DNA of 64,000 nucleotides from Nitrospira sp. (GTDB lineage: Bacteria; Nitrospirota; Nitrospiria; Nitrospirales; Nitrospiraceae), in contig JARFXR010000002.1 in the NCBI GenBank assembly GCA_029194535.1, forward strand, positions 62,001 through 126,000. The letters run 5' to 3'. Below, one piece after another: positions 61 through 10,765 of this stretch; the first letter of the stretch is position 1; each line of letters opens with the position of its first letter. Both the position numbers and the translations under genes were made by a program. Under the pieces are notes generated by a model, which worked only from the letters and a program-made list of their open reading frames with translations, searched no databases and was not told where the DNA came from.

Positions 61-1116
61 TCAACCTCTTGTTGATCGTCGCCGGCTGGCACGCGTTCGT
101 GCGATCGCTCTGGGAACCCGGGCCTCCAAAACCCCTCCCTCCCAATCCTCCTGTGCCTTCTTCAACTTCAACAACCTGACATCCTCGAACCCGGCTGCTT
201 TCAACCAGGCGGTGACGTCGGCTGCGCGATAGGTATCCCCGGTTTCGGTGAACAAGAGCATGGATAGGGCGAATAGGCTGGCATCCTCGGGAAGAAGCCC
301 TTCCCGATCATGAAGGAAGGCGTCTTGGACAAGGAGGCGACCGCCGGGATTCAACGCCGCCTTGATCCGCCGAAAGACAGCCTGGTTCTGCTCCGGAGAA
401 TAAATGTGCACGACGTTCGAAAACCACACGACGTCGTAGCTGCGGGGAATCGGATCACTCAACAGGTCCAGCGGCAGGCATGACAGTCTTGCGCCGGACT
501 TGTGGCTTCGGGCGATGGTCTTCGCCACTTCGAGCGCGGCGGGACGATCACAGACCGTCGCCCGCAGCCCTCGGTTTCTGGCGAGGAACGCCAACGCATA
601 TGTCCCCGGTCCCCCGCCGAGATCCAGCAGCGATTTCGCTCCTTTGAGCGAAATACCGGCGGCTAGACGCGGTGCGAGATCCATCGTACGTTGATGCATG
701 GCCCAGGTGAATCGTGAGCGATAGTCCGGCTCCTCGGGCTCGTCGTGGTCGACAGGTTTTCCGGTTCGCACCGACTCAGTCAAATCCGCCCAATCGCGCC
801 ACTGATCGGCAAGCAGGTCGATATAGCTGCCTCGATAAGCGGGATGGTCGCCGTTCAACAGAGTCAGACCCAACCGGCCGCTCCGGTACCGCTCTCCCTT
901 CTTTATGAGCAGTCCGGCCATGGCCAAATTCCGGCAGAGCATCGTCACTCCCCGTTCGCTGACCTTGAGCGATCGGGCTAATTGGGGCGGAGTCCAGGTC
1001 GAGGAGTCCATGACCGTGAAGAGTTTCAGTTCGAGGGCGGTGAGAATGATCCGCGGAAGACGATACCCGGCAAGAAGGTCGCGGAACTCGGAAAAGGTCG
1101 CCGGCGCCCTCATCAT
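61..1116 (-). CDS. SAM-dependent O-methyltransferase, winged-helix dimerisation type
   Basis: The predicted protein of about 351 residues has the two-part layout of the acetylserotonin/hydroxyneurosporene O-methyltransferase family. The N-terminal half reads as a winged-helix dimerisation domain (ALELKLFTVMD through the LARSLKVSERG helix-turn-helix). The C-terminal half is a Rossmann methyltransferase with the SAM-binding loop LLDLGGGPGTYAL, then the acidic VCDRP strand end. The ATG at 1116 was chosen because it overlaps the TGA of the preceding gene as ATGA, which implies translational coupling. The gene is the last complete member of the operon that begins with the lasso-B2-like protease, so it could be a tailoring enzyme, though a small-molecule substrate is equally possible. 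The substrate cannot be read from sequence. Confidence 0.85.
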   Translation of the reverse strand: MMRAPATFSEFRDLLAGYRLPRIILTALELKLFTVMDSSTWTPPQLARSLKVSERGVTMLCRNLAMAGLLIKKGERYRSGRLGLTLLNGDHPAYRGSYIDLLADQWRDWADLTESVRTGKPVDHDEPEEPDYRSRFTWAMHQRTMDLAPRLAAGISLKGAKSLLDLGGGPGTYALAFLARNRGLRATVCDRPAALEVAKTIARSHKSGARLSCLPLDLLSDPIPRSYDVVWFSNVVHIYSPEQNQAVFRRIKAALNPGGRLLVQDAFLHDREGLLPEDASLFALSMLLFTETGDTYRAADVTAWLKAAGFEDVRLLKLKKAQEDWEGGVLEARVPRAIARTRASRRRSTRG

Positions 1117-1550
1117 GTCGCTCCGCCGATTTGCCGCCGGCACCAGCGGATCAGATCCTCCACTTTGGCAAGGTTATGAAAGTCCACCGGCCGTTCGAAC
1201 GTCACCGCCACATATTCATCATTCATCTCGGATTGCTCCGAGAATCCGGACTGTAAAAGAAGGCCCCTGAATTTCGACACCGCCGGCTGAATGAAGTATT
1301 TCGCCTGCTTGGCGATCTCGTCCGTGCCCAGATCCTCCGGAGTGCCGTCGGACATGAGGCTCATCACGTCATCCATCGCCACTCCGTACTGACAAAGCAC
1401 CTTCCCTTCCGGCTTGAGTTCCAACAGCCAGCCGTCGTCTCCCAGATCCAGCGCCAACGCACCGCCCGGCTCAAGCTCGTAGAGCTGGGGAAACGCCGCG
1501 TTCAACCTGGTCCGGGCTTCAGCCCAACCCGGCGATATCGGTTCACTCAT
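1113..1550 (-). CDS. Hypothetical protein of about 145 residues, chaperone-like size
   Basis: I do not recognise this family. The protein is small and acidic, starts MSEPISPGWAEAR, and alternates strands and helices (LALDLGDDGWLLEL, then MDDVMSLMSD), ending in an Arg-rich WCRRQIGGAT tail. That pattern loosely recalls small type III-secretion-type chaperones, but this is only an impression. The ATG at 1550 overlaps the stop of the upstream TPR gene (ATGAGTGA). Its own stop overlaps the methyltransferase start, so all three genes are translationally coupled. The tight coupling suggests a shared task with the TPR protein. Confidence 0.7.
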   Translation of the reverse strand: MSEPISPGWAEARTRLNAAFPQLYELEPGGALALDLGDDGWLLELKPEGKVLCQYGVAMDDVMSLMSDGTPEDLGTDEIAKQAKYFIQPAVSKFRGLLLQSGFSEQSEMNDEYVAVTFERPVDFHNLAKVEDLIRWCRRQIGGAT

Positions 1551-2355
1551 GTGGTCCCCCGACAATTTCCCGTTCTCGTCGCTCACGGAGATCCCGCAGC
1601 CGCTTGGTGTTCTCGTTCAATTTCGGCAGCTGATATTTCCGGTCCATTTCCACCACCCGCTCCAGCAAGGCGACCGCTTCGCCAAGACGGCCGAGTTCCT
1701 CGTAGCACTGAGCCAGCACGTAGCGAGCGCCGCCCGCGCGGAGTTCGTCATGCGCCCGTTCCGCAATGGATTGGCTGGTTTGACAGCAAGCAATCGCGTC
1801 GTCATGACGGCGCTGCATCAAGAAGGTCCGCCCCATCATGCGCCAGGCATCGGCCGCACCGCCTGGATTCTCCAATCGGCGCATCAGCAGAAGCGAACGT
1901 TCATACCATCGGATCGCCTCATCGAATTGGCCGGTCTCCCTCGCGATCAGGCCGAGATCGGAATACAGAACCGCCTTGGCCGTCTCGTCGCGTGTCTTGG
2001 TCATCAAGTCCAACGCTTCAAGATAGTAGGCCCTCGCCCGCTCCCATTCTCCCGCGTCCGCGCGCAGGTTACCTAGATTGGCCAATGTCGTCCCGATCCC
2101 CTTCTCGTCGCCGAACACTTTCTGCAGTTCCAACACCTCCTGATAATAGTCCTGCGCCGCCTCTCGCCGGCCGCTGACCGCACAGATGTTGCCGAGATTG
2201 CCGAGCGTGGCCACCAAGGCCCGCTGGTCGCCGGTCATCCGATCGCATTCGAGCGCCTTGGCATAGCAGGTGTACGCCTCGGTATAGTGCCCGCGCGAGA
2301 AGTGTTCGTTCCCCTGCCGATTGAGCTCCTCCGACAAGCCGTTCTTGAGCATCAT
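1543..2355 (-). CDS. Tetratricopeptide-repeat protein
   Basis: The 270-residue protein consists almost entirely of TPR helices, with repeated patterns such as LGNLGNICAVSGRREAAQDY, LANLGNLRADAGEWERARAY and YSDLGLIARETGQFDEAIRW at roughly 40-residue spacing, about five to six repeats. No signal peptide or enzyme domain is visible, so it is probably a cytoplasmic scaffold. The start ATG overlaps the stop of the upstream metallo-beta-lactamase-like gene by four bases. A partner protein within the same operon is the natural inference; which one is unknown. Confidence 0.85.
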   Translation of the reverse strand: MMLKNGLSEELNRQGNEHFSRGHYTEAYTCYAKALECDRMTGDQRALVATLGNLGNICAVSGRREAAQDYYQEVLELQKVFGDEKGIGTTLANLGNLRADAGEWERARAYYLEALDLMTKTRDETAKAVLYSDLGLIARETGQFDEAIRWYERSLLLMRRLENPGGAADAWRMMGRTFLMQRRHDDAIACCQTSQSIAERAHDELRAGGARYVLAQCYEELGRLGEAVALLERVVEMDRKYQLPKLNENTKRLRDLRERREREIVGGPHE

Positions 2356-2957
2356 GGCGGCGAGTCCTTCAACGCCAACTCCACCGCCTGTTTCGCGCCG
2401 GTGAGAATCGAGACTCCGTCGCCGACCAAGAGCGCATCGAAGGTGTACTTCAACAGGCGCCGCAGCCCTTCCCGCGCCTTGGCGACATCGGCGTATTTCT
2501 CCGCAGCCAACAGACTCAGGACCCCGGCGGGCTTTCCGATCAACGCATCGCCGACGATGATGGTGCCCTTGCCCTGCGGAATGAACAGCGCCGACTCTCC
2601 GGGAGACTTTTGATCACTCAGCTGGACCGCCCACATTCCACCCGGCAGCAACTCTCCGTCCTTGAACGTTCTGGAGGGCTGAAGATCCATGTGTCCGGCA
2701 TCCGCATCAGGCACCCATAACTGACATCGGAATTCATTTCTGCACGTTTCGGCCTCCCGCCGATGATCGCGATTCGTGACGACGATGTAATCGACGCCTC
2801 CTTGGCGGCGTATCAGCGTAGTCGCCTCCGCCGTCAGGGGAGGCGGATCCACGAGAATCTTGTGCTCGCCGATCGCCAGGAACAGTCCGTTGAAATCCAG
2901 CTGTTTCTCTTCGGAGAACCAGGACCATTGCCAGATGTCGCGAAGCAGTTGTTTCAT
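2352..2957 (-). CDS. Metallo-beta-lactamase-fold-like protein with degenerate metal motif
   Basis: The roughly 201-residue product has the strand order of an MBL-fold protein (GLFLAIGEHKILVDPPPLT, then DYIVVTNRDHRREAE, later GTIIVGDALIG and DALLVGDGVSI). The canonical T-H-x-H-x-D-H metal site is replaced by TNRDHRREAE, keeping at most part of the ligand set, so catalysis is doubtful. The ATG at 2957 was preferred over one 24 bases upstream because a CGGAG sits at proper spacing. Its stop overlaps the TPR gene start. It could be a non-catalytic family member; the fold call is by pattern only. Confidence 0.6.
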   Translation of the reverse strand: MKQLLRDIWQWSWFSEEKQLDFNGLFLAIGEHKILVDPPPLTAEATTLIRRQGGVDYIVVTNRDHRREAETCRNEFRCQLWVPDADAGHMDLQPSRTFKDGELLPGGMWAVQLSDQKSPGESALFIPQGKGTIIVGDALIGKPAGVLSLLAAEKYADVAKAREGLRRLLKYTFDALLVGDGVSILTGAKQAVELALKDSPP

Positions 2958-3054
2958 GGAATACTCCGGATCACACGCCAAGCGGAATCTCTCTGGTAGG
3001 AGCCGGTGATGAACAGCTCGCGCGCATCAGACGGAAAGGACCCGTCTCAACGGC

Positions 3055-3294
3055 TCACAGCGCCGCAACCGCGTCCTTCAGGACCTTCGTGACTTTGGTT
3101 TCAATGCTCGGGTCGCTCGGTAGATCGATGATGTCGTCCTCGGGCAGCGTGATGAACTTCCGGTTCGACCCCTTCGTGAGGGAAATCAGAAACATGCTAT
3201 TGGAGGGCGAGACGGGTATGACCACCTGCACGGCGGGATCAATGCCCTTGACCACCTCCAGAAACTTCTGCTTCCCGGCTTCAATCTCGTCCAT
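3055..3294 (-). CDS. Hypothetical protein, 79 residues
   Basis: A short acidic protein with an N-terminal amphipathic helix (MDEIEAGKQKFLEVVKGI) followed by strands (VQVVIPVSPSNSMFLISLTK, then RKFITLPEDDIIDLP) and a C-terminal helix. A GGGAGGCGGG run lies before the ATG. It lies between the thioredoxin-like gene and the MBL-like gene on the same strand. I do not recognise the family. The organised helix-strand pattern and good ribosome binding site make it likely to be real. Confidence 0.65.
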   Translation of the reverse strand: MDEIEAGKQKFLEVVKGIDPAVQVVIPVSPSNSMFLISLTKGSNRKFITLPEDDIIDLPSDPSIETKVTKVLKDAVAAL

Positions 3295-3324
3295 AGAGCA
3301 TCCCGCCTCCCGTCGGCCGTGTCG

Positions 3325-3861
3325 TTACATCTTGTGCCCGGACCCGGCCAATAGTTTTTCGACCTCGGCCACTATCACGTCGGCACCGGCCAGGTCCATG
3401 TTCCCGACGCGCTGCCAGCGAATCACTCCGTCTTGGTCGATGACGTACACGTTAGGGATGAACTTTCCCCCTCCGTAGAGCTTGTCCGTCACTTTTCCGG
3501 GATCCAGCAGATATGGATAGGTGACCTTGACGGGAAACGCCGAAAGAAACTCCCCGACATCCTTCTTTGAGTTGCCGGAGGAATTCACGCCGATCACCGC
3601 CACATTCTTCCCGTGGGTCGATTCGTACACTCTCTGAAGATTGGTGCCCTGCATCATGCAGGGATCACAGATATGGAACAACCCCAGGACCACGACCTTT
3701 CCCTTTTGCGACGCAAGGCCCACCGTGTCGCCGGTCAAGGCATTCAGCGTAAAGTCCGGCGCTTTCTCGCCCACCTTGAAGAATCCCGCCGCCAAGACTG
3801 CGTAGGAAACCACCATCGGAGCCGCCAGAGCGGCTGCTGCGATAAGGATGGAACGTTTCAT
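3325..3861 (-). CDS. Exported TlpA/peroxiredoxin-like thiol-disulfide protein
   Basis: The predicted 178-residue protein starts with a signal peptide or membrane anchor (MKRSILIAAAALAAPMVVSYAVLAAG) and continues as an AhpC/TSA-ResA type thioredoxin fold: KAPDFTLNALTGDTVGLASQ, then the redox pair C65-D-P-C68, and the cis-proline region FIPNVYVID. It should act in the periplasm, reducing or oxidising cysteines or delivering reductant, as for TlpA/ResA relatives. The ATG at 3861 is preferred over 3939 because the signal peptide begins there, preceded by AAGGGAGGC. About 150 bases separate it from the nucleotidyltransferase gene, so it may have its own promoter. Confidence 0.85.
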   Translation of the reverse strand: MKRSILIAAAALAAPMVVSYAVLAAGFFKVGEKAPDFTLNALTGDTVGLASQKGKVVVLGLFHICDPCMMQGTNLQRVYESTHGKNVAVIGVNSSGNSKKDVGEFLSAFPVKVTYPYLLDPGKVTDKLYGGGKFIPNVYVIDQDGVIRWQRVGNMDLAGADVIVAEVEKLLAGSGHKM

Positions 3862-4010
3862 AATGCCTCCCTTTCTTGAACAGTGCTTCGAGTTGAGTTC
3901 TGAGCAGGACAGCCTTGCCCAGGACTCAGCACCGAGCACTCAGGCCTTCTTGTGCGGCTATCCTACCACGCGGTTTTTTTGGGGAGCAACGTACGGAGAC
4001 GCACGGAGGA

Positions 4011-5306
4011 TCAGCACTGAAGATCAGCGGTTCGAGAACGGCCCGCTAGGCGGGCCATCCCTCGACGAGCCTGTTTGGCCAGGGGCAATCTGGCGGTCCA
4101 TGACCGGAGAGGTTGCACCGTCCGCGCCAACCGCTGCAGAAATCGGCGCTGGCGGAACCATTCAGGTGGGTCATGGACCACGCGATGATCGTCGCGGCAG
4201 AGGGCGAGCGCGTAGCGCCACTGCTCCAGCCTAGTATCTTTCAGCGCATAATACAATGCCGGCCCATCGTGCTCGTCGATTCCGTCCTCCGGCTGGAAGA
4301 GCAGGCTTTTCGGCATGCGCGCCGCCAGGCCCAGTACGTCTGGGTCGGCCCGGACTGCCGCCCACAGGGCTGGAGGCAGCGCGGTATTCATCGTCTGCTG
4401 CGCCAGTCTCAATCCGAGCAGCAACATGCGCCGGCACTTCCATCCCTTCGCTGCTGACCATACCCGATCCCAGTCCAATGTTCGCGTCCGAATCAAGGCG
4501 GCCACGTCCACGATCCATTTCAGTCTCTCCCACGCGTGTTTCGAGCCGTGCACGCACAAAATGATCAGGAGTTCCTCGGGGGCGATGGTGCTGAGCCGTC
4601 CGCCGTCGACAGACAGGGAAACCTGCCGCTCCCAAATGTCGGATCGATCCAGCCGGAAAGAGAATTGCTCGTGGGCCATAACCCATTGCAGATCCACCAG
4701 CAGACGACTCGTCTCGTGCACGTAGAGATGATATGGTTCATCGTAGTGCGCGGCCTGAAATGACTCACGGGACTGACGCAGGGCCCGGTATCCATGAGCC
4801 GACAAGATCTTCTGCGCCTCGGCCAAGCGAGCTTGCGGCACGATGAAATCCAGATCGTCGAAATCTCGAAGATTCGCGTTTTCATATGCCATCGCGGCGA
4901 GAGTGGCGCCCTTGAACGGGATGGCCGGCAGGCCCCTCTGTTCGAATGCGCGGCTGATCCGGACCGTCTCGCGGGCCAAGGCTCCGTTCAGCAACATCCC
5001 GGCCTGCGTCACCCGGCGAAGCGCCGTCAACGTCGCGGGAGGAACTAGGTCCGCGCAGGTCGCGGTGATCGACCGCCACAGCAGCGGACCGACCCCATGA
5101 AACCGGGCGAGGTCGAGCACCAACGTCCAATTGAGCGACTCCAAGTCCGTTTCTCTCACACGCTGTCGAACCGGGTCGCTTAGCGACGCGCGGGCACACA
5201 GCAGGATGAATCTCGCCTCGGAAAACCGGGACGATGCCGCCGCCCTCTTCAATCCGGAGATCGAAGCGAGCGGGGTTTCTAACTGATCAGACGGTTCCTG
5301 CATCAT
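4011..5306 (-). CDS. Nucleotidyltransferase-family protein of the kind found in lasso/HprK peptide clusters
   Basis: The 431-residue protein matches the NTP_transf_5 type (Pfam family from memory). The signature is PFKGATLAAMAY near residues 130-140, then LRDFDDLDFIV with acidic residues D148, D150, D151 and D153 arranged like a polymerase-beta-fold active site. Helical flanks follow, including HGSKHAWERLKWIVDVA. Members of this family recur beside lasso-peptide and HprK-related genes in other bacteria (established association); their substrate is not generally known. The start ATG overlaps the stop of the upstream desaturase gene. It may nucleotidylate the peptide or a partner protein; that is inference. 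Confidence 0.8.
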   Translation of the reverse strand: MMQEPSDQLETPLASISGLKRAAASSRFSEARFILLCARASLSDPVRQRVRETDLESLNWTLVLDLARFHGVGPLLWRSITATCADLVPPATLTALRRVTQAGMLLNGALARETVRISRAFEQRGLPAIPFKGATLAAMAYENANLRDFDDLDFIVPQARLAEAQKILSAHGYRALRQSRESFQAAHYDEPYHLYVHETSRLLVDLQWVMAHEQFSFRLDRSDIWERQVSLSVDGGRLSTIAPEELLIILCVHGSKHAWERLKWIVDVAALIRTRTLDWDRVWSAAKGWKCRRMLLLGLRLAQQTMNTALPPALWAAVRADPDVLGLAARMPKSLLFQPEDGIDEHDGPALYYALKDTRLEQWRYALALCRDDHRVVHDPPEWFRQRRFLQRLARTVQPLRSWTARLPLAKQARRGMARLAGRSRTADLQC

Positions 5307-6340
5307 CCCCTCCTGTTTTCCAAGCGCGCCGGGGTCTGAAACGCCCTCACGAACGGCAACAGATAGAGTCGGGACACAGAAGTGAATTCGTGACGGTCGG
5401 AACTAGGAAGCCCCACGTCCAACGTCTCCCGCTTCCCGGGTATGTATAACGTCCCAAACAGCGCATCCCAGACGGCCAGCTTCACCGCAAAGTTCTTGTT
5501 CCAATGATGCGCCGCCGCGCTGTGATGAATCTGATGGTGCGCCGGGCTCATGAATACTCGATTCAGGACCGGTCCGTAGGAAAACCAGAGGTGGGAATGC
5601 CGTAAGTGGGACCCCAAGATGCCGGAGAGAAACGTGAATATACTGACGCCGAACACCATGGTAATCCGCTGATCCTCCCCCAGGAGGTTCTGGTAAAAGA
5701 CCGCGGTCATCCCCACGACGGGCGCTTGAACGGCCGCGAAGGTGAGAATCTCGACCGGATGCACCCGAAACGCCGTGACCGGCGTCAGCACCTCTGCGGA
5801 ATGATGGACCCGATGAAACATCCACAGCAGCGGAATGCGGTGGAACAGCACGTGAGTCCAGTAATTGATAAAGTCGTGCAGCACGAAAAATCCGGCTGCC
5901 GCCGCCACGATCCCCGCTGGAGAGAGCACGCTCGGCGGCTTCCATCCCCAACCCCCGACCACAAGCGCCGTCATCGCTTTCGCTCCGAGCAGCCCGATGC
6001 CGGTCATGATCGGCATGTACAGCAAGAACTGAAGCACCAGATCGCAGACTCCGAATTGCCAATCGAGCCTCGTCGAGGGGTGCTGATACAGCTGCGCGGG
6101 AAACGCAAACTCGCCGAACGATCGGTCCCCTGCTGTTCCGTGGCGCTTGACCGCCGCGAACAGCATCCAGGCGATCACCAGGCTGGACACGAGATACGGC
6201 CAAGCAAGAGGGTGCGACAGATCCAGGAACACCGTCGGAATCTGTGAGACTGCCGCGAGCACGTTCGACCACGAGGACACCGCTCCCAACCCGTACTCCG
6301 TCGCCCGCTCGACGAACCATGTGATCGCTTCAATCGCCAT
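5303..6340 (-). CDS. Sterol desaturase / fatty acid hydroxylase family membrane oxygenase
   Basis: The 345-residue membrane protein has the histidine boxes of the di-iron fatty acid hydroxylase superfamily: HDFINYWTH, HRVHHS and HHQIHHS, embedded among hydrophobic segments (LAWPYLVSSLVIAWMLFAAV; AGIVAAAAGFFVL). Family members insert oxygen into lipids or sterols at the membrane. It starts only six bases after the HprK-like stop and its own stop overlaps the nucleotidyltransferase start, so it is firmly inside the peptide operon. Such an enzyme could hydroxylate a lipid attached to, or exported with, the product, or could simply be co-regulated. The substrate cannot be inferred. Confidence 0.9.
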   Translation of the reverse strand: MAIEAITWFVERATEYGLGAVSSWSNVLAAVSQIPTVFLDLSHPLAWPYLVSSLVIAWMLFAAVKRHGTAGDRSFGEFAFPAQLYQHPSTRLDWQFGVCDLVLQFLLYMPIMTGIGLLGAKAMTALVVGGWGWKPPSVLSPAGIVAAAAGFFVLHDFINYWTHVLFHRIPLLWMFHRVHHSAEVLTPVTAFRVHPVEILTFAAVQAPVVGMTAVFYQNLLGEDQRITMVFGVSIFTFLSGILGSHLRHSHLWFSYGPVLNRVFMSPAHHQIHHSAAAHHWNKNFAVKLAVWDALFGTLYIPGKRETLDVGLPSSDRHEFTSVSRLYLLPFVRAFQTPARLENRRG

Positions 6341-6346
6341 CGACGC

Positions 6347-7381
6347 TCAAGCGCTCTTACGCAGTTCCAGAAGCGGTTTGATCAACTGGGGCAAGTCCAG
6401 AATGTCGCGCCCGAAATGCAGGCGGTAGCTGTCCGACTGCTGGACCAGTTTCGATAACGCGTGGAACTCACGCCGCGCCACCGCCTGGTCGTAGACCAAC
6501 ATTCCCTGCGGCATAAGCGCTTCCAGCGCCCGGCTCTTCGCCAAGGGTTCCAGGCAGCTGTGCGGCATATCGACCACGTGCGGAAACATGATGATGGCAG
6601 GTACGCAGGACGACCCCACGGAATCAGCGTAGAGATCTTCGGCGTAGAAAAACTTCTTGCAGATCCCCTGTTGCAACAGCCCGGCCGGCGCGGTTCTGAT
6701 CTCCGGAAAGAATTCCACGCTATGGTCGGTGACGTCGATCTTCATCGGGAAGGCCAGGATCTCCATGTGACCGCCGAGATCACGGAGGAGGGGATAGTCA
6801 TCGGACAGATACCGGAACCCCGAACGAAGCAGGGACAGAAACGCCGTGGTCTTTCCTTGGCCGCTGTAGCCCGGAATCAGTACGCCACGGCCCTGATACT
6901 CCAGAGCGGTCGCATGGACCGTGAACAACCCCCGCCGCTTGAGCAGCTCCGTGAGCGCGAAATGAAAGAAACTCGTGCAGACATCCGCGTGCATCGCCTC
7001 CGGATTGATAAAATAGCCATCGGCCGTTCCCAGGGCTCCGTCGATCACGAGCAGTCCTTGATCGTGAAAGTCTGCGACCAGCCGGTCCCTGTCCTGAATC
7101 ACATCACAACGCCAGATGGACCGTAGCGAGTCCCCCATCGACGGCCTGGTCCCGGAAAACAATGTCGTGATCGTCTTCGAGGGTCGATACGGAATATCCG
7201 CCCTTGTGCCGACCTCTTCGAAGCGAACCGTCAGGACCGTGTTTCCTGGGGCCGACTCGGCCCGATAATGCCGAAGAAACGCCAGAACTGGCGCGGCCAA
7301 CGTGATGGACGATGCGTGATAGTGCAGTTCGATCCCGTGGAAGGTGAACACGTAGTCGTGAGCCTGGTTCGCTGCAAACAT
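6347..7381 (-). CDS. HprK-related serine kinase of peptide-modification clusters
   Basis: The predicted 344-residue protein contains a P-loop GYSGQGKTT (residues about 171-179), preceded by the beta strand HATALEYQGRGVLIP and followed by FRYLSDDYPLL, the same order as the catalytic core of HPr kinase/phosphorylase. The N-terminal part is the variable region typical of HprK-related proteins in lasso-peptide loci. In the paeninodin lasso system an HprK homologue phosphorylates a serine of the peptide (established). The precursor here has one serine in its C-terminal segment (S33). I chose ATG 7381, which has AAGAGG six bases upstream. The longer frame uses a TTG at 7474 and would have to read through a strong hairpin. 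Confidence 0.85.
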   Translation of the reverse strand: MFAANQAHDYVFTFHGIELHYHASSITLAAPVLAFLRHYRAESAPGNTVLTVRFEEVGTRADIPYRPSKTITTLFSGTRPSMGDSLRSIWRCDVIQDRDRLVADFHDQGLLVIDGALGTADGYFINPEAMHADVCTSFFHFALTELLKRRGLFTVHATALEYQGRGVLIPGYSGQGKTTAFLSLLRSGFRYLSDDYPLLRDLGGHMEILAFPMKIDVTDHSVEFFPEIRTAPAGLLQQGICKKFFYAEDLYADSVGSSCVPAIIMFPHVVDMPHSCLEPLAKSRALEALMPQGMLVYDQAVARREFHALSKLVQQSDSYRLHFGRDILDLPQLIKPLLELRKSA

Positions 7382-7420
7382 CTCATACCTCTTCTTGTCG
7401 CACATGCCGGCACTACCAGT

Positions 7421-7450
7421 GGCTGGCCGATCTTCAGCGATCGGCCAGCC
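7421..7450 (-). terminator. 12-bp perfect hairpin between the precursor gene and hprK-like gene
   Basis: GGCTGGCCGATC (7421-7432) and GATCGGCCAGCC (7439-7450) are perfect complements separated by a six-base loop TTCAGC. The hairpin lies after the precursor stop (7484) and before the preferred kinase start (7381). No U-run follows on the minus strand, so full intrinsic termination is unlikely. A partial terminator or an RNA 3'-end stabiliser that raises precursor levels relative to enzymes fits, as seen behind precursor genes of other peptide operons. Confidence 0.6.
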
Positions 7451-7483
7451 GTCGAATCCAAGGTCTAGAGGCAATTAAGTGAA

Positions 7484-7603
7484 TTAATTGTCATTGACCT
7501 TATCGCTGAACTTCTCCCGATACTTGTTACCGGTGATGTCGCGCAGCAATGCGTGAATCGTCAGCACAGGCTCCGTATAGGATTCCTTCTGATGAACGTC
7601 CAT
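7484..7603 (-). CDS. Candidate RiPP precursor peptide, 39 residues
   Basis: ATG at 7603, TAA at 7484, with an excellent AAAGGAGGTG ribosome site that overlaps the stop of the PqqD-like gene. Residues Y9, P12, L14 and T24 have the exact spacing of the lasso leader motif Y-x-x-P-x-L-x-x-x-G-x(5)-T, with Ala18 in the Gly position. After T24-G25 comes a 14-residue tail N-KYRE-KFSD-KVND-N, which is three tandem K-x-x-[E/D] tetrads with one serine. In lasso systems the Thr is at position -2, so the core would begin at N26. The Lys/acid pairs are what an ATP-grasp ligase would need for omega-amide cross-links, as in graspetides. The leader match is seen; cross-linking is inference. Confidence 0.8.
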   Translation of the reverse strand: MDVHQKESYTEPVLTIHALLRDITGNKYREKFSDKVNDN

Positions 7604-7609
7604 TCGTCT

Positions 7610-8065
7610 TCACCTCCTTTCCAGTGTTAAGAGTCCCTCGTGACCCAGTTGGGTGACGAGAGCCAGCAGATCGTCGGCGATGCGCTCGGGTGAAGCGTTG
7701 TATCTGGCGCACAGCGCCGTATGAATGTCGTGCAGGGATTCGTTTCCCGTACACCGCTCCCACACGGCGGACCCCACGCGATTGAGCGTGTAGTACCGTC
7801 CGCTGGTAAAATCCAGCAGCACGGTCTCCCCATCCAAGGTCGTGCCCTGCACATTAGTACTGAGCCGCGGAACCGCCGCCATCAATTCCTGGCGCTTCTG
7901 TTGGTTCCCGCGTTCGATTTGCCTCTGCTCCTCCTGACTCAGCAGGCTGCGGGCGGCTTCCGCCAGCTGTTCCGTTCCGGCGGATGCGTCGACCGCAGGC
8001 CACTCCGCTTCCCCCCCCTCCACGTTCGGTCTCAAATCGGCAGTAATGAACGGTTGTCTGCTCAT
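7610..8065 (-). CDS. PqqD-like leader-recognition protein (lasso B1 / RRE type)
   Basis: The 151-residue product ends in a PqqD-like domain (residues about 65-149): LDGETVLLDFTSGRYYTLN, RVGSAVWERC, then IHTALCARYNASPERIADDL and a last strand GLLTLERR. PqqD-like domains bind leader peptides of RiPPs and present them to modifying enzymes. The first 60 residues are a Glu/Gln-rich extension not found in minimal lasso B1 proteins. ATG 8065 was chosen because AAGGAGGAACG precedes it; the frame extends 49 codons further upstream with Arg-rich, non-coding-like sequence. Its stop TGA is part of the precursor ribosome site, so the leader binder and precursor are translated together. Confidence 0.88.
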   Translation of the reverse strand: MSRQPFITADLRPNVEGGEAEWPAVDASAGTEQLAEAARSLLSQEEQRQIERGNQQKRQELMAAVPRLSTNVQGTTLDGETVLLDFTSGRYYTLNRVGSAVWERCTGNESLHDIHTALCARYNASPERIADDLLALVTQLGHEGLLTLERR

Positions 8066-8159
8066 GATCGACGTTCCTCCTTTTCCCCCTCGCGCACATC
8101 CCATGATCAGCGCGTTCCGTTTCCTTTTTCGCCTCTCCGTGGAGCGTCTGCCCGACTCT

Positions 8160-9071
8160 TCACGTCGTGCCGCGCGTGGTTCCCGCGCAGAGTAGATCGG
8201 CCAAGGCATCACCCATCCGCTGTCCGGTATGATTTTCGAACAGCGTAAATGCCGGACTCGTGTTCACTTCGAAGCAGTAATAGGCGCCGTCCGGTGTACG
8301 GCGAAGATCGATCCCGCTCAGACTCAGGCCGATCCCCTTCACGAGATCCAGACACATTGACTGGATCGCCGGAGGCAACTCGACGGCCCGCATGCTGCGA
8401 CGGTCGCACCCCGCTTCTGCATACCGGTAATCCACAGCATCGGCAATCACCTCGGTGGCGAAGAGTCGTTCCCCGACCGTGTGCACGCGCAGGTCCGTGC
8501 CGGGAATCATTTCCTGAAACTGTGTGGGACAATCTCGGATCAGATCGAGACGCGCAAAATCGTCCCGGGTCAGCCGCTTCACGATCGACCGCTCCCCACT
8601 GATCGATTTGTAGATGACGCGGCCTCGACACTCCTCGTAAAAGGCACGAGCTGCTTCCGGCACCATCGTCACCAGGGTGTTGGGGACCCGAAACCCATAC
8701 CGCTCGATCAGCTGCAGCTGATAAGGCTTCGACATATTCGTATGTGATGCCTGTCTTCGGTTCACGACGAGAACGGGCAGACTCTCCGTGAATTCCCACA
8801 GGGAGGTGACGGCCATGTACGTGGCCGGCGTCGACGTACCACGACTGGTCATCGCGCGAAGATAGACCGAGTCGATCTCCTCCGCGTGAAGAATCCGGTT
8901 TCCCAGGCTGATCCGGTCCAAGGCGCGGCCGTCTTCAATCGACCACGACAGATTCCAGATTCCGCCGTCGGAATCCGGATGGACGAGCATCAATTCAGCG
9001 TTCCGGACTGCCAGTCTGGCACAGATGTTGGCCAACACCGGGTCCGCCATCGGCCCCACGAGCAGAATCAT
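8160..9071 (-). CDS. ATP-grasp ligase (RimK/graspetide-synthetase-like), apparently active copy
   Basis: The 303-residue protein has the features of a RimK-like ATP-grasp enzyme: SKPYQLQLIERYGFRVPNTL entering the central domain, lysine K155 in VIYKSISGERS, QEMIPGTDLRVHTVGE with E187, D193 and R195, and the metal-binding end GIDLRRTPDGAYYCFEVNTS with E268 and N270. ATP-grasp ligases join a carboxylate to an amine or hydroxyl via acyl phosphate, and in graspetides form side-chain esters or amides in a peptide. The gene starts inside the 3' end of the other ATP-grasp gene (77-base overlap) and precedes the PqqD-like gene. It is the best candidate for the peptide-modifying enzyme. Confidence 0.87.
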   Translation of the reverse strand: MILLVGPMADPVLANICARLAVRNAELMLVHPDSDGGIWNLSWSIEDGRALDRISLGNRILHAEEIDSVYLRAMTSRGTSTPATYMAVTSLWEFTESLPVLVVNRRQASHTNMSKPYQLQLIERYGFRVPNTLVTMVPEAARAFYEECRGRVIYKSISGERSIVKRLTRDDFARLDLIRDCPTQFQEMIPGTDLRVHTVGERLFATEVIADAVDYRYAEAGCDRRSMRAVELPPAIQSMCLDLVKGIGLSLSGIDLRRTPDGAYYCFEVNTSPAFTLFENHTGQRMGDALADLLCAGTTRGTT

Positions 9072-9990
9072 AAAAAGCCGGACTCCTCGGTTCAGACAAA
9101 TAATCGGCGAGACGCCGCACGAGTCGACGCTGCACCGCTCGGGTACAGCGCCAATAGTTGGGGGGGCCGTTTACATCAAGACAGTAGCTCCCTCCGTCAG
9201 GAGTGACGACCACTTGGCACTCGGCGAAGGTCAAACCCAACGCGCGGACCAGATCCACACACTGCCCGGTCGGAAGCGCCGGCAGGTCGGCGCCCTGCAA
9301 GAACACTTCTTCGTCGGCGTGGAGGATGGTTGCCGCTGCGTCCTCTCCCACGACATAGACGGTCATTCGTTGACCCTGCGGTACGGCCTGGAGCGAAACA
9401 GCGTGGCGCTCCATCATGTGACGAATTTGCTCGATCCCGTTCCACCGACAGAGAACGAGTCCCGGCTCCACTGATCCCAACGGCTTGAGGTACGCCCGTT
9501 CTCCCCAAGCCGAGAATTGCCGAACGGCATCGGCCTGGCTGGAAGTATAACGGGCGACCGGGAGATCAAACCCATAGGCCCGCGCGATCCGTGAAAGCGC
9601 CGCGCTCCCCCCGAGCAGAGCAGGACGTCCCCCCGGTATCGGTCGGTTGACCACGGTGCAGGGAATGCTGTTCAAGAACGCGATCCACGTCGCCGTGGTT
9701 TCACGGAGAACGTACTCGCGGTCGTGAGCGGCGAGCTCGTCGAGGACCAGCGGCAACGGGAGGACCCACTGGACGAACACTCCGCGAAGGGTGCTGCACT
9801 CGATAGATCGGTCGTCGATGACCAGTGCGCCCGTCATGGTGGGAGAGCCGGCCATGATCGACCAATTCAGCCGGATCCTGTCCAGGAGTTCGGCCCGGGG
9901 AATCAGGAGCACGTCCAGTCCACGCCGGCCCAGCTCCGCATGTACGAGTGACGCCCAGGGGTCGGTCGTATCGGCCAGCACCAGCACCAC
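8995..9990 (-). CDS. Second ATP-grasp-fold protein, divergent active site
   Basis: About 331 residues, homologous in layout to the neighbouring ATP-grasp protein: CTVVNRPIPGGRPALLGGSA, then AYLKP with the ATP lysine, QAVPQGQRMTVYVVGE, and the C-terminal VVTPDGGSYCLDVNGPPNYW. Aligned to the neighbour, the segment equivalent to QEMIPGTDLRVHTVGE has lost the Glu, Asp and Arg. The metal-site Glu is Asp. It may therefore be a non-catalytic partner or a specialised ligase. GTG 9990 is preferred as start (TGGGAGGA ten bases upstream) over TTG 10050, because the extra 20 residues look unlike the fold start VVLVLADTTDPW. The last ~25 residues overlap the next gene and are probably disordered. Confidence 0.8.
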   Translation of the reverse strand: MVLVLADTTDPWASLVHAELGRRGLDVLLIPRAELLDRIRLNWSIMAGSPTMTGALVIDDRSIECSTLRGVFVQWVLPLPLVLDELAAHDREYVLRETTATWIAFLNSIPCTVVNRPIPGGRPALLGGSAALSRIARAYGFDLPVARYTSSQADAVRQFSAWGERAYLKPLGSVEPGLVLCRWNGIEQIRHMMERHAVSLQAVPQGQRMTVYVVGEDAAATILHADEEVFLQGADLPALPTGQCVDLVRALGLTFAECQVVVTPDGGSYCLDVNGPPNYWRCTRAVQRRLVRRLADYLSEPRSPAFYDSARGADGGPGVGQHLCQTGSPER

Positions 9991-10294
9991 GTTCGAGCGC
10001 TCCTCCCATCGGACCGGATCAGCTTCAGGCCGGTCGCAGATAACCCGCAAGGTCTCGCCGACTTTTGAGCAGAGTAGGTCAGTAACCGGATTCTTCCTAG
10101 CTCCCTGGAAGCTGGGATAGAGCCCTACTTTGGCAGGTCAGTACTACTGCGTGGAGTGATGGATCGGACCGTCTGGACGAACTTCTTCGCGAAAACTGGA
10201 AACATCTGGAAACGGGATGTTCGGCTGGACTGATTGAAAAGACGGCGGGGTGACGGATTGCGGGTCGAGCCTCAACGGCGCGGAGATACGGAAG
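9991..10294. other. Intergenic stretch within the peptide operon
   Basis: About 300 bases separate the protease-like gene from the ATP-grasp genes. The only open frame of note is the low-complexity one at 10144-10359. Otherwise I see no promoter, riboswitch or RNA gene. The spacing leaves room for an internal promoter. Confidence 0.5.
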
Positions 10295-10359
10295 TCATGC
10301 CACGCGTGCAGAGCCTTCAGGCGAAGGCCGTTTCTTCGTCTCGTCCTGTCCCGCCGCAA
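10144..10359 (-). CDS. Small ORF overlapping the B2-like gene end; doubtful
   Basis: A 71-codon frame on the operon strand with a Pro/Ser-rich second half (VTPPSFQSVQPNIPFPDVSS). Its first 65 bases lie inside the B2-like gene and no Shine-Dalgarno sequence precedes the ATG. It could be a second peptide substrate or the out-of-frame remnant of a longer B2 C-terminus. The Arg-rich N-terminus argues for a chance frame. Kept only because the location, between maturation genes, is where a second precursor could sit. Confidence 0.2.
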   Translation of the reverse strand: MRRDRTRRRNGLRLKALHAWHDFRISAPLRLDPQSVTPPSFQSVQPNIPFPDVSSFREEVRPDGPIHHSTQ

Positions 10360-10765
10360 GCTCGGGATACGAGAAGGTCACCGTGTACTGGCGCCATTGT
10401 TCGCTCAGCTCGTGAAACGGTTCCTGATCAAGTGTGAGCCATGCATGGCCATCGAGATTCGAGCCTTCCCTCCTGATCCCACAACAAAAGCGGACGGGGC
10501 GGCCGGCCCGCCTGGTCAACCAGTAGAGGGCCAACGCCCGGGGGAAACAGTTGCCTTTGGTATTGTAGGGAAACCGTTCGAGCCAGCGATCCACATAATA
10601 GATGCGGAGTTCCAACGTGGAGATGTCGCGACAGCCGGCCTCCGCCCCGCGGTTCAGCAGGTCCAGGACTTGGGGCAGACTTCTCCACCTCAGCAGGAGC
10701 CGCACAGTACACAGGAGGAGCCCCACGCCGGCTATGGTCCGGTATTTCGACAGCAGCCGAATCAT
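10295..10765 (-). CDS. Lasso-peptide B2-type transglutaminase-like leader protease
   Basis: The predicted 156-residue protein matches the B2 family of lasso-peptide maturation proteases. A Cys in GNCFPRALALYWLTRRAG (C73) and a His in DGHAWLTLD (H107), with a following Asp (D113) and the family Gly-rich VRFCCGIRREG strand, give a Cys-His-Asp arrangement. B2 proteins cut the leader just after the residue following the conserved Thr, in concert with a PqqD-like B1 protein (established). The ATG 10765 begins MIRLLSKYRTIAGVGLLL, a hydrophobic start usual in this family. It is the first gene after purF on the same strand, about 165 bases away, so the operon may begin here or read through from purF. 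Confidence 0.87.
   Translation of the reverse strand: MIRLLSKYRTIAGVGLLLCTVRLLLRWRSLPQVLDLLNRGAEAGCRDISTLELRIYYVDRWLERFPYNTKGNCFPRALALYWLTRRAGRPVRFCCGIRREGSNLDGHAWLTLDQEPFHELSEQWRQYTVTFSYPELAAGQDETKKRPSPEGSARVA

Follow-up and report, generated by a model that had tools for sequence, protein, structure and literature searches.

A Nitrospira gene cluster combining genes for lasso-type leader handling, an HprK-like kinase and a graspetide-type ATP-grasp pair

Among ribosomally synthesised and post-translationally modified peptides (RiPPs), the linear polyphosphorylated peptides (LPPs) of Bacillota are made by a RiPP recognition element (RRE), an HprK-related kinase, a nucleoside triphosphate (NTP) transferase and an MsbA-like exporter, without a cyclase; in the core AQSNWK, Ser3 is polyphosphorylated by the HprK-like kinase (Popov et al. 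2026, PMC13381572). In the graspetides, CorB, the corallotide enzyme, forms a Lys–Asp isopeptide in KxxxD repeats, which are hydroxylated afterwards (Carter et al. 2026, PMC13097080), and for other clusters it was shown that graspetide synthesis can depend on partner proteins (PMC13097080). Lasso–graspetide chimeras have been engineered, and the modifications of one such product were described as unknown from nature (PMC13003496). Here we analysed a Nitrospira operon in which features of these systems occur together. The window, the whole stretch of 64,000 nucleotides that was analysed, corresponds to G000:C2:62001-126000, and the operon lies on its minus strand, downstream of purF. We consider it fairly probable that this is a cyclase-free, LPP- or paeninodin-like phosphopeptide RiPP cluster that gained a graspetide-type cyclisation module. 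The features of the locus are as follows.

10295–10765, minus strand: B2, a lasso-type leader peptidase (Transglut_core3; PF13471, 2e-18), with ATG at 10765
10051–10294, no strand: gap between B2 and GR1, in relatives the site of a ~603-aa MsbA-like ATP-binding cassette (ABC) transporter; neither transporter nor remnant seen
8995–9990, minus strand: GR1, a protein of graspetide-synthetase fold (NCBIfam TIGR04187, 4.6e-13); likely start GTG at 9990, placed from relatives
8160–9071, minus strand: GR2, a graspetide-type ATP-grasp ligase (TIGR04187, 3.5e-37; PDB PsnB, 5.9e-26)
7610–8065, minus strand: PqqD-family RRE, B1-like (PF05402, 1e-18)
7484–7603, minus strand: precursor of 39 aa, MDVHQKESYTEPVLTIHALLRDITG followed by NKYREKFSDKVNDN, with AGGAGG ahead of the ATG
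7529–7603, minus strand: predicted leader; YTEPVL matches the YxxPxL RRE motif, and DIT-G places Thr at –2
7487–7528, minus strand: predicted core NKYREKFSDKVNDN, which contains two K-x-x-[E/D]-K units in tandem (KYREK, KFSDK)
6347–7474, minus strand: HprK-related kinase (TIGR04352, 4.6e-14; P-loop GYSGQGKTT)
5303–6340, minus strand: membrane protein of the FA_hydroxylase superfamily (FA_hydroxylase, 8e-23)
4011–5306, minus strand: NTP_transf_5 nucleotidyltransferase, as in paeninodin/LPP-type clusters (1e-60)

Like the LPPs, the locus has a discrete RRE, an HprK-like kinase, an NTP transferase, a YxxP leader, a variable core and no macrolactam cyclase, and its relatives, though not the window itself, have an MsbA-like exporter. 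It differs from them in that a lasso B2 stands where they have the SpI signal peptidase, in the additional ATP-grasp pair and FA_hydroxylase protein, in the many cores that lack Ser3, and in its host phylum, Nitrospirota, LPPs having been reported from Bacillota alone (PMC13381572). With the paeninodin-like lasso peptides it shares the RRE (B1), B2, the HprK-like kinase, the NTP transferase and a leader with an aromatic-xxP motif and with Thr at –2; unlike them, it has ATP-grasps, no lasso cyclase and a core without the lasso ring pattern. With corallotide and the other TIGR04187-type graspetides, which bear the name of GR2's best NCBIfam match, it has in common a graspetide-type ATP-grasp, repeated units of Lys and an acid (KxxxD there, Kxx[D/E] here), an oxygenase nearby and the precedent of partner-dependence. 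Those systems lack the RRE-dependent lasso-type leader with B2, the kinase, the nucleotidyltransferase and a precursor of 39–47 aa, and their partner protein is a chaperone resembling peptidyl-prolyl isomerases rather than a pseudo-ATP-grasp.

Gene content, conservation, selection, the absence of a cyclase, the state of the catalytic residues and the core motif were all read from sequence. A first-pass annotation of this DNA had placed B2, PqqD, a 39-codon precursor, HprK and a nucleotidyltransferase in one minus-strand operon here, and the profile matches bear this out; its "desaturase-family oxygenase" is in fact the membrane protein of the FA_hydroxylase family. B2 scored 46.6 bits against the NCBIfam model lasso_biosyn_B2 (cut-off 33) and retains the Cys (KGNCFPR) as well as the His and Asp (LDGHAW). 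The reading frames of GR1 and GR2 overlap by 77 nt, and a Pfam search gave no match for GR1. PqqD carries an N-terminal extension of ~70 aa that is conserved among relatives, and the P-loop and DD motif of HprK are invariant. The HPr-rel-A models (TIGR04352/TIGR04353) were not reached, the kinase scoring 52 bits against a cut-off of 200 and PqqD 14.8 against 35. No SpI-type signal peptidase was found among the annotated open reading frames of the operon, where B2 stands instead.

The set was counted over 17 Nitrospirales genomes, including five Nitrospira/Nitrospirota records from a named collection. Eight relatives share both the gene set and its order (G001, G004, G055, G070, G072, G073, G077, G081), and looser forms occur in G026, G118 and G132. 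The GR2–PqqD–precursor block and an HprK gene in the locus were present in all 17 genomes and B2 in the locus of 15; in one of the other two the contig stops there, and in the other (G118) B2 lies elsewhere beside an ABC transporter (L109). The check on conservation of the neighbourhood that was proposed with the first-pass annotation thus came out in favour of that annotation. An ABC transporter, which in relatives lies between B2 and GR1, belongs to 12 of the 17 clusters, and the FA_hydroxylase gene to 13, always together with the ATP-grasp pair. When compared with the nearest relative, G001, the ratio of nonsynonymous to synonymous substitutions (dN/dS) was 0.09–0.22 across all cluster genes (GR1, 0.22; B2, 0.20; precursor, 0.18), so that all operon genes are under purifying selection. 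The conserved gene order among relatives and these low dN/dS values put the operon far beyond chance. An apparent break in the HprK gene of G004 turned out to be a gene-calling artefact with the frame intact.

The transporter gene was lost in the window genome: it is gone from the loci of both the window and G001, and no MsbA-like exporter was found in the window genome, where the best homologue stands at 31%. Together with a B2-only remnant found in another genome (L095), this loss might be taken to mean that the cluster is decaying and its peptide is no longer made or exported. We regard this as improbable, since all eight genes are intact, dN/dS has stayed at 0.09–0.22 since the split from G001, and the loss of the transporter is older than that split. 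The remnant itself (6937-9312, G017) is a B2 standing alone between purF and a redoxin gene and is likely what is left of a lost cluster.

The lasso cyclase was searched for both around the cluster and genome-wide. No PF00733 cyclase adjoins the cluster in the window's own genome or in 11 relatives (12 whole genomes), and none was found when the contig was read 16 kb past window position 1, in agreement with the first-pass annotation, which had seen no asparagine-synthetase-like enzyme. The gene of 2 kb that separates B2 from GR1 in relatives, suspected of being the cyclase, is the ABC transporter, and weak "ASN" profile matches (52–59 bits) beside clusters are the glutamine amidotransferase domain of the adjacent purF product. 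Full-length PF00733 proteins do exist in the window genome, on another contig or far from the cluster, and the same method detected true lasso clusters (PqqD–B2–cyclase) in Nitrospirales (L097-L100, L080, L084, L087, and L091, in which B2 was not scored); these are rarer than the cyclase-free type, have lasso-like precursors where one was detected, and have HprK and/or the nucleotidyltransferase, mostly both. One could therefore imagine an ordinary lasso cluster here, with a cyclase acting from elsewhere in the genome, as the adjacent cyclases of true lasso clusters (L097-L100) in some relatives might suggest, and with accessory ATP-grasps. We give this hardly any weight: B2 is single-copy in the window genome, no cyclase lies near the cluster in the 12 genomes, and the HprK, nucleotidyltransferase, B2 and PqqD of true lasso clusters score far lower on profiles of the present cluster (HprK, for example, 22–33 bits vs 470–620) and therefore form a separate lineage.

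The origin of the cyclase-free state is indicated by the interval between purF and the redoxin–MBL–TPR–methyltransferase genes. In a dozen other Nitrospira this interval holds B2–PqqD–precursor–HprK–nucleotidyltransferase with neither cyclase nor ATP-grasp (e.g. L078, L086, L102). A second cyclase-free form, PqqD–precursor–HprK–nucleotidyltransferase–B2–ABC, stands alone in L083, L088, L092, L101 and L104 and directly adjoins the ATP-grasp block in G055, G072, G077 and G081; its cores (DIT-A/GQSGYNCDD...) resemble the LPP core AQSNWK of Bacillota. The lack of a cyclase is therefore a trait of the background system. The simplest account is that the ATP-grasp pair joined an LPP-like set that was already cyclase-free and did not substitute for a lasso cyclase, contrary to what the first-pass annotation had proposed. 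The window and G001 have lost the LPP-like subcluster and retain the ATP-grasp block and B2; B2 is kept and constrained, and therefore serves the present precursor.

The idea that an ATP-grasp plays the cyclase's role on a lasso-type scaffold, closing the N-terminal amine onto Asp or Glu, was also weighed. The lasso leader set is indeed there, with B1 (the RRE), B2, the YxxP motif (YTEPVL) and Thr at –2 (DIT-G), no cyclase lies nearby, and Asp falls at core position 9 if the core begins after DIT-G. This reading nevertheless has only a slight chance of being right. The cyclase is already missing from the ATP-grasp-less clusters at the same site, and the cores keep internal K-x-x-[D/E] units and not Gly1 or an acid at 7–9. 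The lasso core pattern (a small first residue, Asp/Glu at 7–9) is not found in the window core, which begins NKYREKFSD with Asn1, and these positions are unconstrained in the family. To our knowledge, no ATP-grasp makes a threaded lasso.

The two ATP-grasp proteins were then compared with solved enzymes. The relatives of GR2 were PsnB, PruB (9bou), CdnC, MdnC and MdnB (5.9e-26 to 5e-13), followed by RimK-type ligases at 1e-4, and the residues SKPYQ, YKSIS, QE-IPG-D-R, GIDLR and FEVN are kept, invariant or nearly so. By these residues GR2 is predicted to be an intact graspetide-type synthetase. In the tree the 17 cluster enzymes form one clade (98/92), near stand-alone pairs described below. 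GR1 aligns with GR2 over its full length (hhalign 99.8%), and its predicted model (pLDDT 78) first matched CdnC, AMdnB, MdnC, PruB and PsnB, with TM-scores to PDB entries of ~0.5–0.6, which support the fold family and not the detail. GR1 also matched proteasome subunits in phmmer (E 1e-4), which was dismissed as chance, the predicted fold being that of a graspetide synthetase. In GR1 the catalytic D-x-R is replaced (GQRMTVY) and E-x-N has become D-x-N or D-x-S (CLDVS); because of these changes GR1 is probably a pseudo-ATP-grasp partner, and the pair probably amounts to one ligase and a pseudoenzyme. Of the two ATP-grasp ligases first annotated, both genes are thus real, but probably only one encodes a ligase.

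Additional evidence came from the precursor, whose whole sequence is MDVHQKESYTEPVLTIHALLRDITGNKYREKFSDKVNDN. The boundary between leader and core was placed by the Thr(–2) rule of lasso B2 proteins and by the point at which the precursors diverge. With the exception of the true-lasso control, no precursor exceeded the cut-off of the NCBIfam precursor models. Cores of the ATP-grasp clusters contain tandem K-x-x-[D/E] units (KYREK, KFSDK, KTSDK, KERDK, KLLDK, KQPEK), and the G070 precursor carries GQKYREKTSDKVGSEGPG. The pattern K..[DE] was observed 56 times in these cores against 12.4 expected, with none of 5000 shuffles as high, and K..[DE]K 33 times against 1.5. In seven cores of <50% identity the count, 8 against 2.7, was still significant (7 of 5000 shuffles), and a spacing of 2 from Lys to the acid was avoided (1 vs 13.4). 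In 42 cores of the ATP-grasp-less sister clusters K..[DE] occurred at the expected level (3 vs 3.5). K-x-x-[D/E] thus offers donor and acceptor residues of the graspetide type at conserved spacing, which lends independent support to the cross-linked product proposed in the first-pass annotation, although the cross-linking itself is still something that we infer. Taking the motif, the neighbours of the stand-alone pairs and CorB together, Lys–Asp/Glu macrolactams would most likely be the modification, with a preferred i+3 linkage and i+4 as a possible one.

The product could instead be linear as in LPPs, phosphorylated and nucleotidylated only, with the ATP-grasp pair making another ligation, for example by attaching an amino acid or a small amine at the C-terminus or on acidic side chains. 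LPP products are linear, the sister clusters without ATP-grasps retain the full set of RRE, HprK, nucleotidyltransferase and B2, and RimK-type ATP-grasps, weaker relatives of GR2, ligate free amino acids. Against this, the nearest solved relatives of GR2 are all macrocyclases, the GR1 model too matches macrocyclases first, and the Lys–acid spacing of exactly 3 tracks the ATP-grasps and not the kinase. We consider a linear product unlikely.

For a phosphopeptide cluster with an acquired cyclisation module, the following pathway, with its chemical steps, the GR1–GR2 complex, the cleavage point and the step order all deduced, can be proposed. The PqqD-family RRE would bind the leader at YTEPVL and present the precursor to the enzymes. 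GR2, probably complexed with GR1, would activate core Asp/Glu residues as acyl-phosphates, which would be joined to a nearby Lys, most likely the one three residues earlier in K-x-x-[E/D]-K, giving a macrolactam (isopeptide). The HprK-like kinase would phosphorylate a core side chain, and NTP_transf_5 would add a group to the phosphate. Oxidation of the peptide may be the role of the FA_hydroxylase-like protein; that this protein may act on the stapled form is a guess from its co-occurrence with the ATP-grasp block. B2 would cleave at the Thr(–2) site, after DIT-G, and in most relatives the dedicated ABC transporter, whose gene is lost in the window genome, would export the product. RRE binding, B2 cleavage and the HprK and NTP_transf_5 steps are modelled on the published behaviour of lasso and LPP homologues.

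Several observations weigh against this scheme. The window genome has no transporter; every named graspetide model has a curated cut-off that GR2 does not reach (128 vs 350 bits); K-x-x-x-[DE] is mildly enriched too (22 vs 11.6), and the linkage partners are guessed from spacing. Some cores in ATP-grasp clusters lack the motif (e.g. GGASGVSGGQCQSTSALNCVL), and the cores are related by descent, so that the shuffles overstate their independence. Graspetide synthetases usually bind their leaders themselves, without an RRE, and here all 17 clusters have a gene for a PqqD-type RRE next to GR2. Finally, the window core has Tyr3 and not Ser3, the LPP phosphosite. Ser3 is found in 12 of 31 cores from the GR clusters and in 27 of 42 sister cores. 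A phosphorylated product, as first suggested, is plausible by analogy to the paeninodin and LPP kinases, but in the window the candidate sites would be the sole Ser (position 8) or Tyr3.

In the searchable literature, no ATP-grasps are described for LPPs, neither HprK nor a lasso B2 is named for graspetides, and the combination was not found described. Neither Nitrospira nor HprK is mentioned by Makarova et al. 2022, who refer to PqqD as an analogy only. Among the graspetide groups of Carter et al. 2026 (PMC13097080), 33 and 39 contain a transglutaminase-fold protein, which could be B2; the main text of that paper names no kinase, PqqD or Nitrospira for them, and by its description these groups could correspond to the present cluster. 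Membership in groups 33/39 aside, the combination of LPP type and graspetide appears to be new. If the proposed pathway is correct, it joins graspetide stapling to lasso leader handling and LPP-type phosphorylation, three RiPP modules that are usually kept separate, in an RRE-guided graspetide pathway with a pseudo-ATP-grasp partner and a predicted lactam-staple motif K-x-x-[D/E], and it extends the range of cyclase-free phosphopeptide RiPPs from Bacillota to major nitrifying bacteria.

Stand-alone pairs of a gene for a short GR1-like protein and a GR2-like gene were also seen outside the cluster, in Nitrospirota and Actinomycetota (L045-L049, L076, L115-L117, L120-L125); the window genome has one beside a Kelch protein (L048, G000:C3:226000-244000). 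Their neighbours, which carry Lys/(Glu,Asp)-rich repeats such as KEIKEKERKEFIKEKERKEF, include an M6 peptidase, the Kelch protein, a DUF6519 protein and several proteins of Actinomycetota. A K/(E,D)-rich stretch occurs in 15 of 17 stand-alone loci, with 9–17 Lys per 40 residues (mostly at least 10) and an equal number of acids, compared with 2–9 in other loci. In-protein lysine–acid cross-linking by these pairs is possible. Viral contigs, when scanned for the stand-alone ligase, yielded no relative. We tentatively suggest, as a possibility that may well fail, a natural hybrid RiPP family with a lasso-type RRE and B2, stapled by an ATP-grasp/pseudo-ATP-grasp pair through repeated Lys(i)–Asp/Glu(i+3) isopeptides, phosphorylated and nucleotidylated, its ligase pair originating in a broader family whose targets are the Lys/Glu-rich repeats of large Nitrospirota and Actinomycetota proteins.

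The neighbouring genes in the window (61–3939) encode a redoxin, a 79-aa protein, an MBL-fold protein, a TPR protein, a 157-aa protein and a methyltransferase, and adjoin purF whichever peptide cluster occupies the site. The redoxin–MBL–TPR–methyltransferase genes were rejected as cluster members, as they flank the same site in genomes with an ATP-grasp-free cluster. Minimal cyclase-free purF-site clusters (B2–PqqD–precursor–HprK–nucleotidyltransferase) without a transporter, with very short cores of ~12 residues (e.g. AIQLSRVLDRTPV), were found in L078, L079, L081, L085, L086, L089, L090, L093, L094, L096, L102 and L106. LPP-like Nitrospira clusters in which a lasso B2 replaces SpI, with cores such as GQSGYNCDDNKKRRWWNND (L083, L088, L092, L101, L104, L036, L040), would likewise carry cyclase-free phosphopeptide RiPPs beyond Bacillota. 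Several LPP-like cores are rich in Gly and His (L082, L083, L092, L101; GGGHHGGG in L101) and perhaps bind metal.

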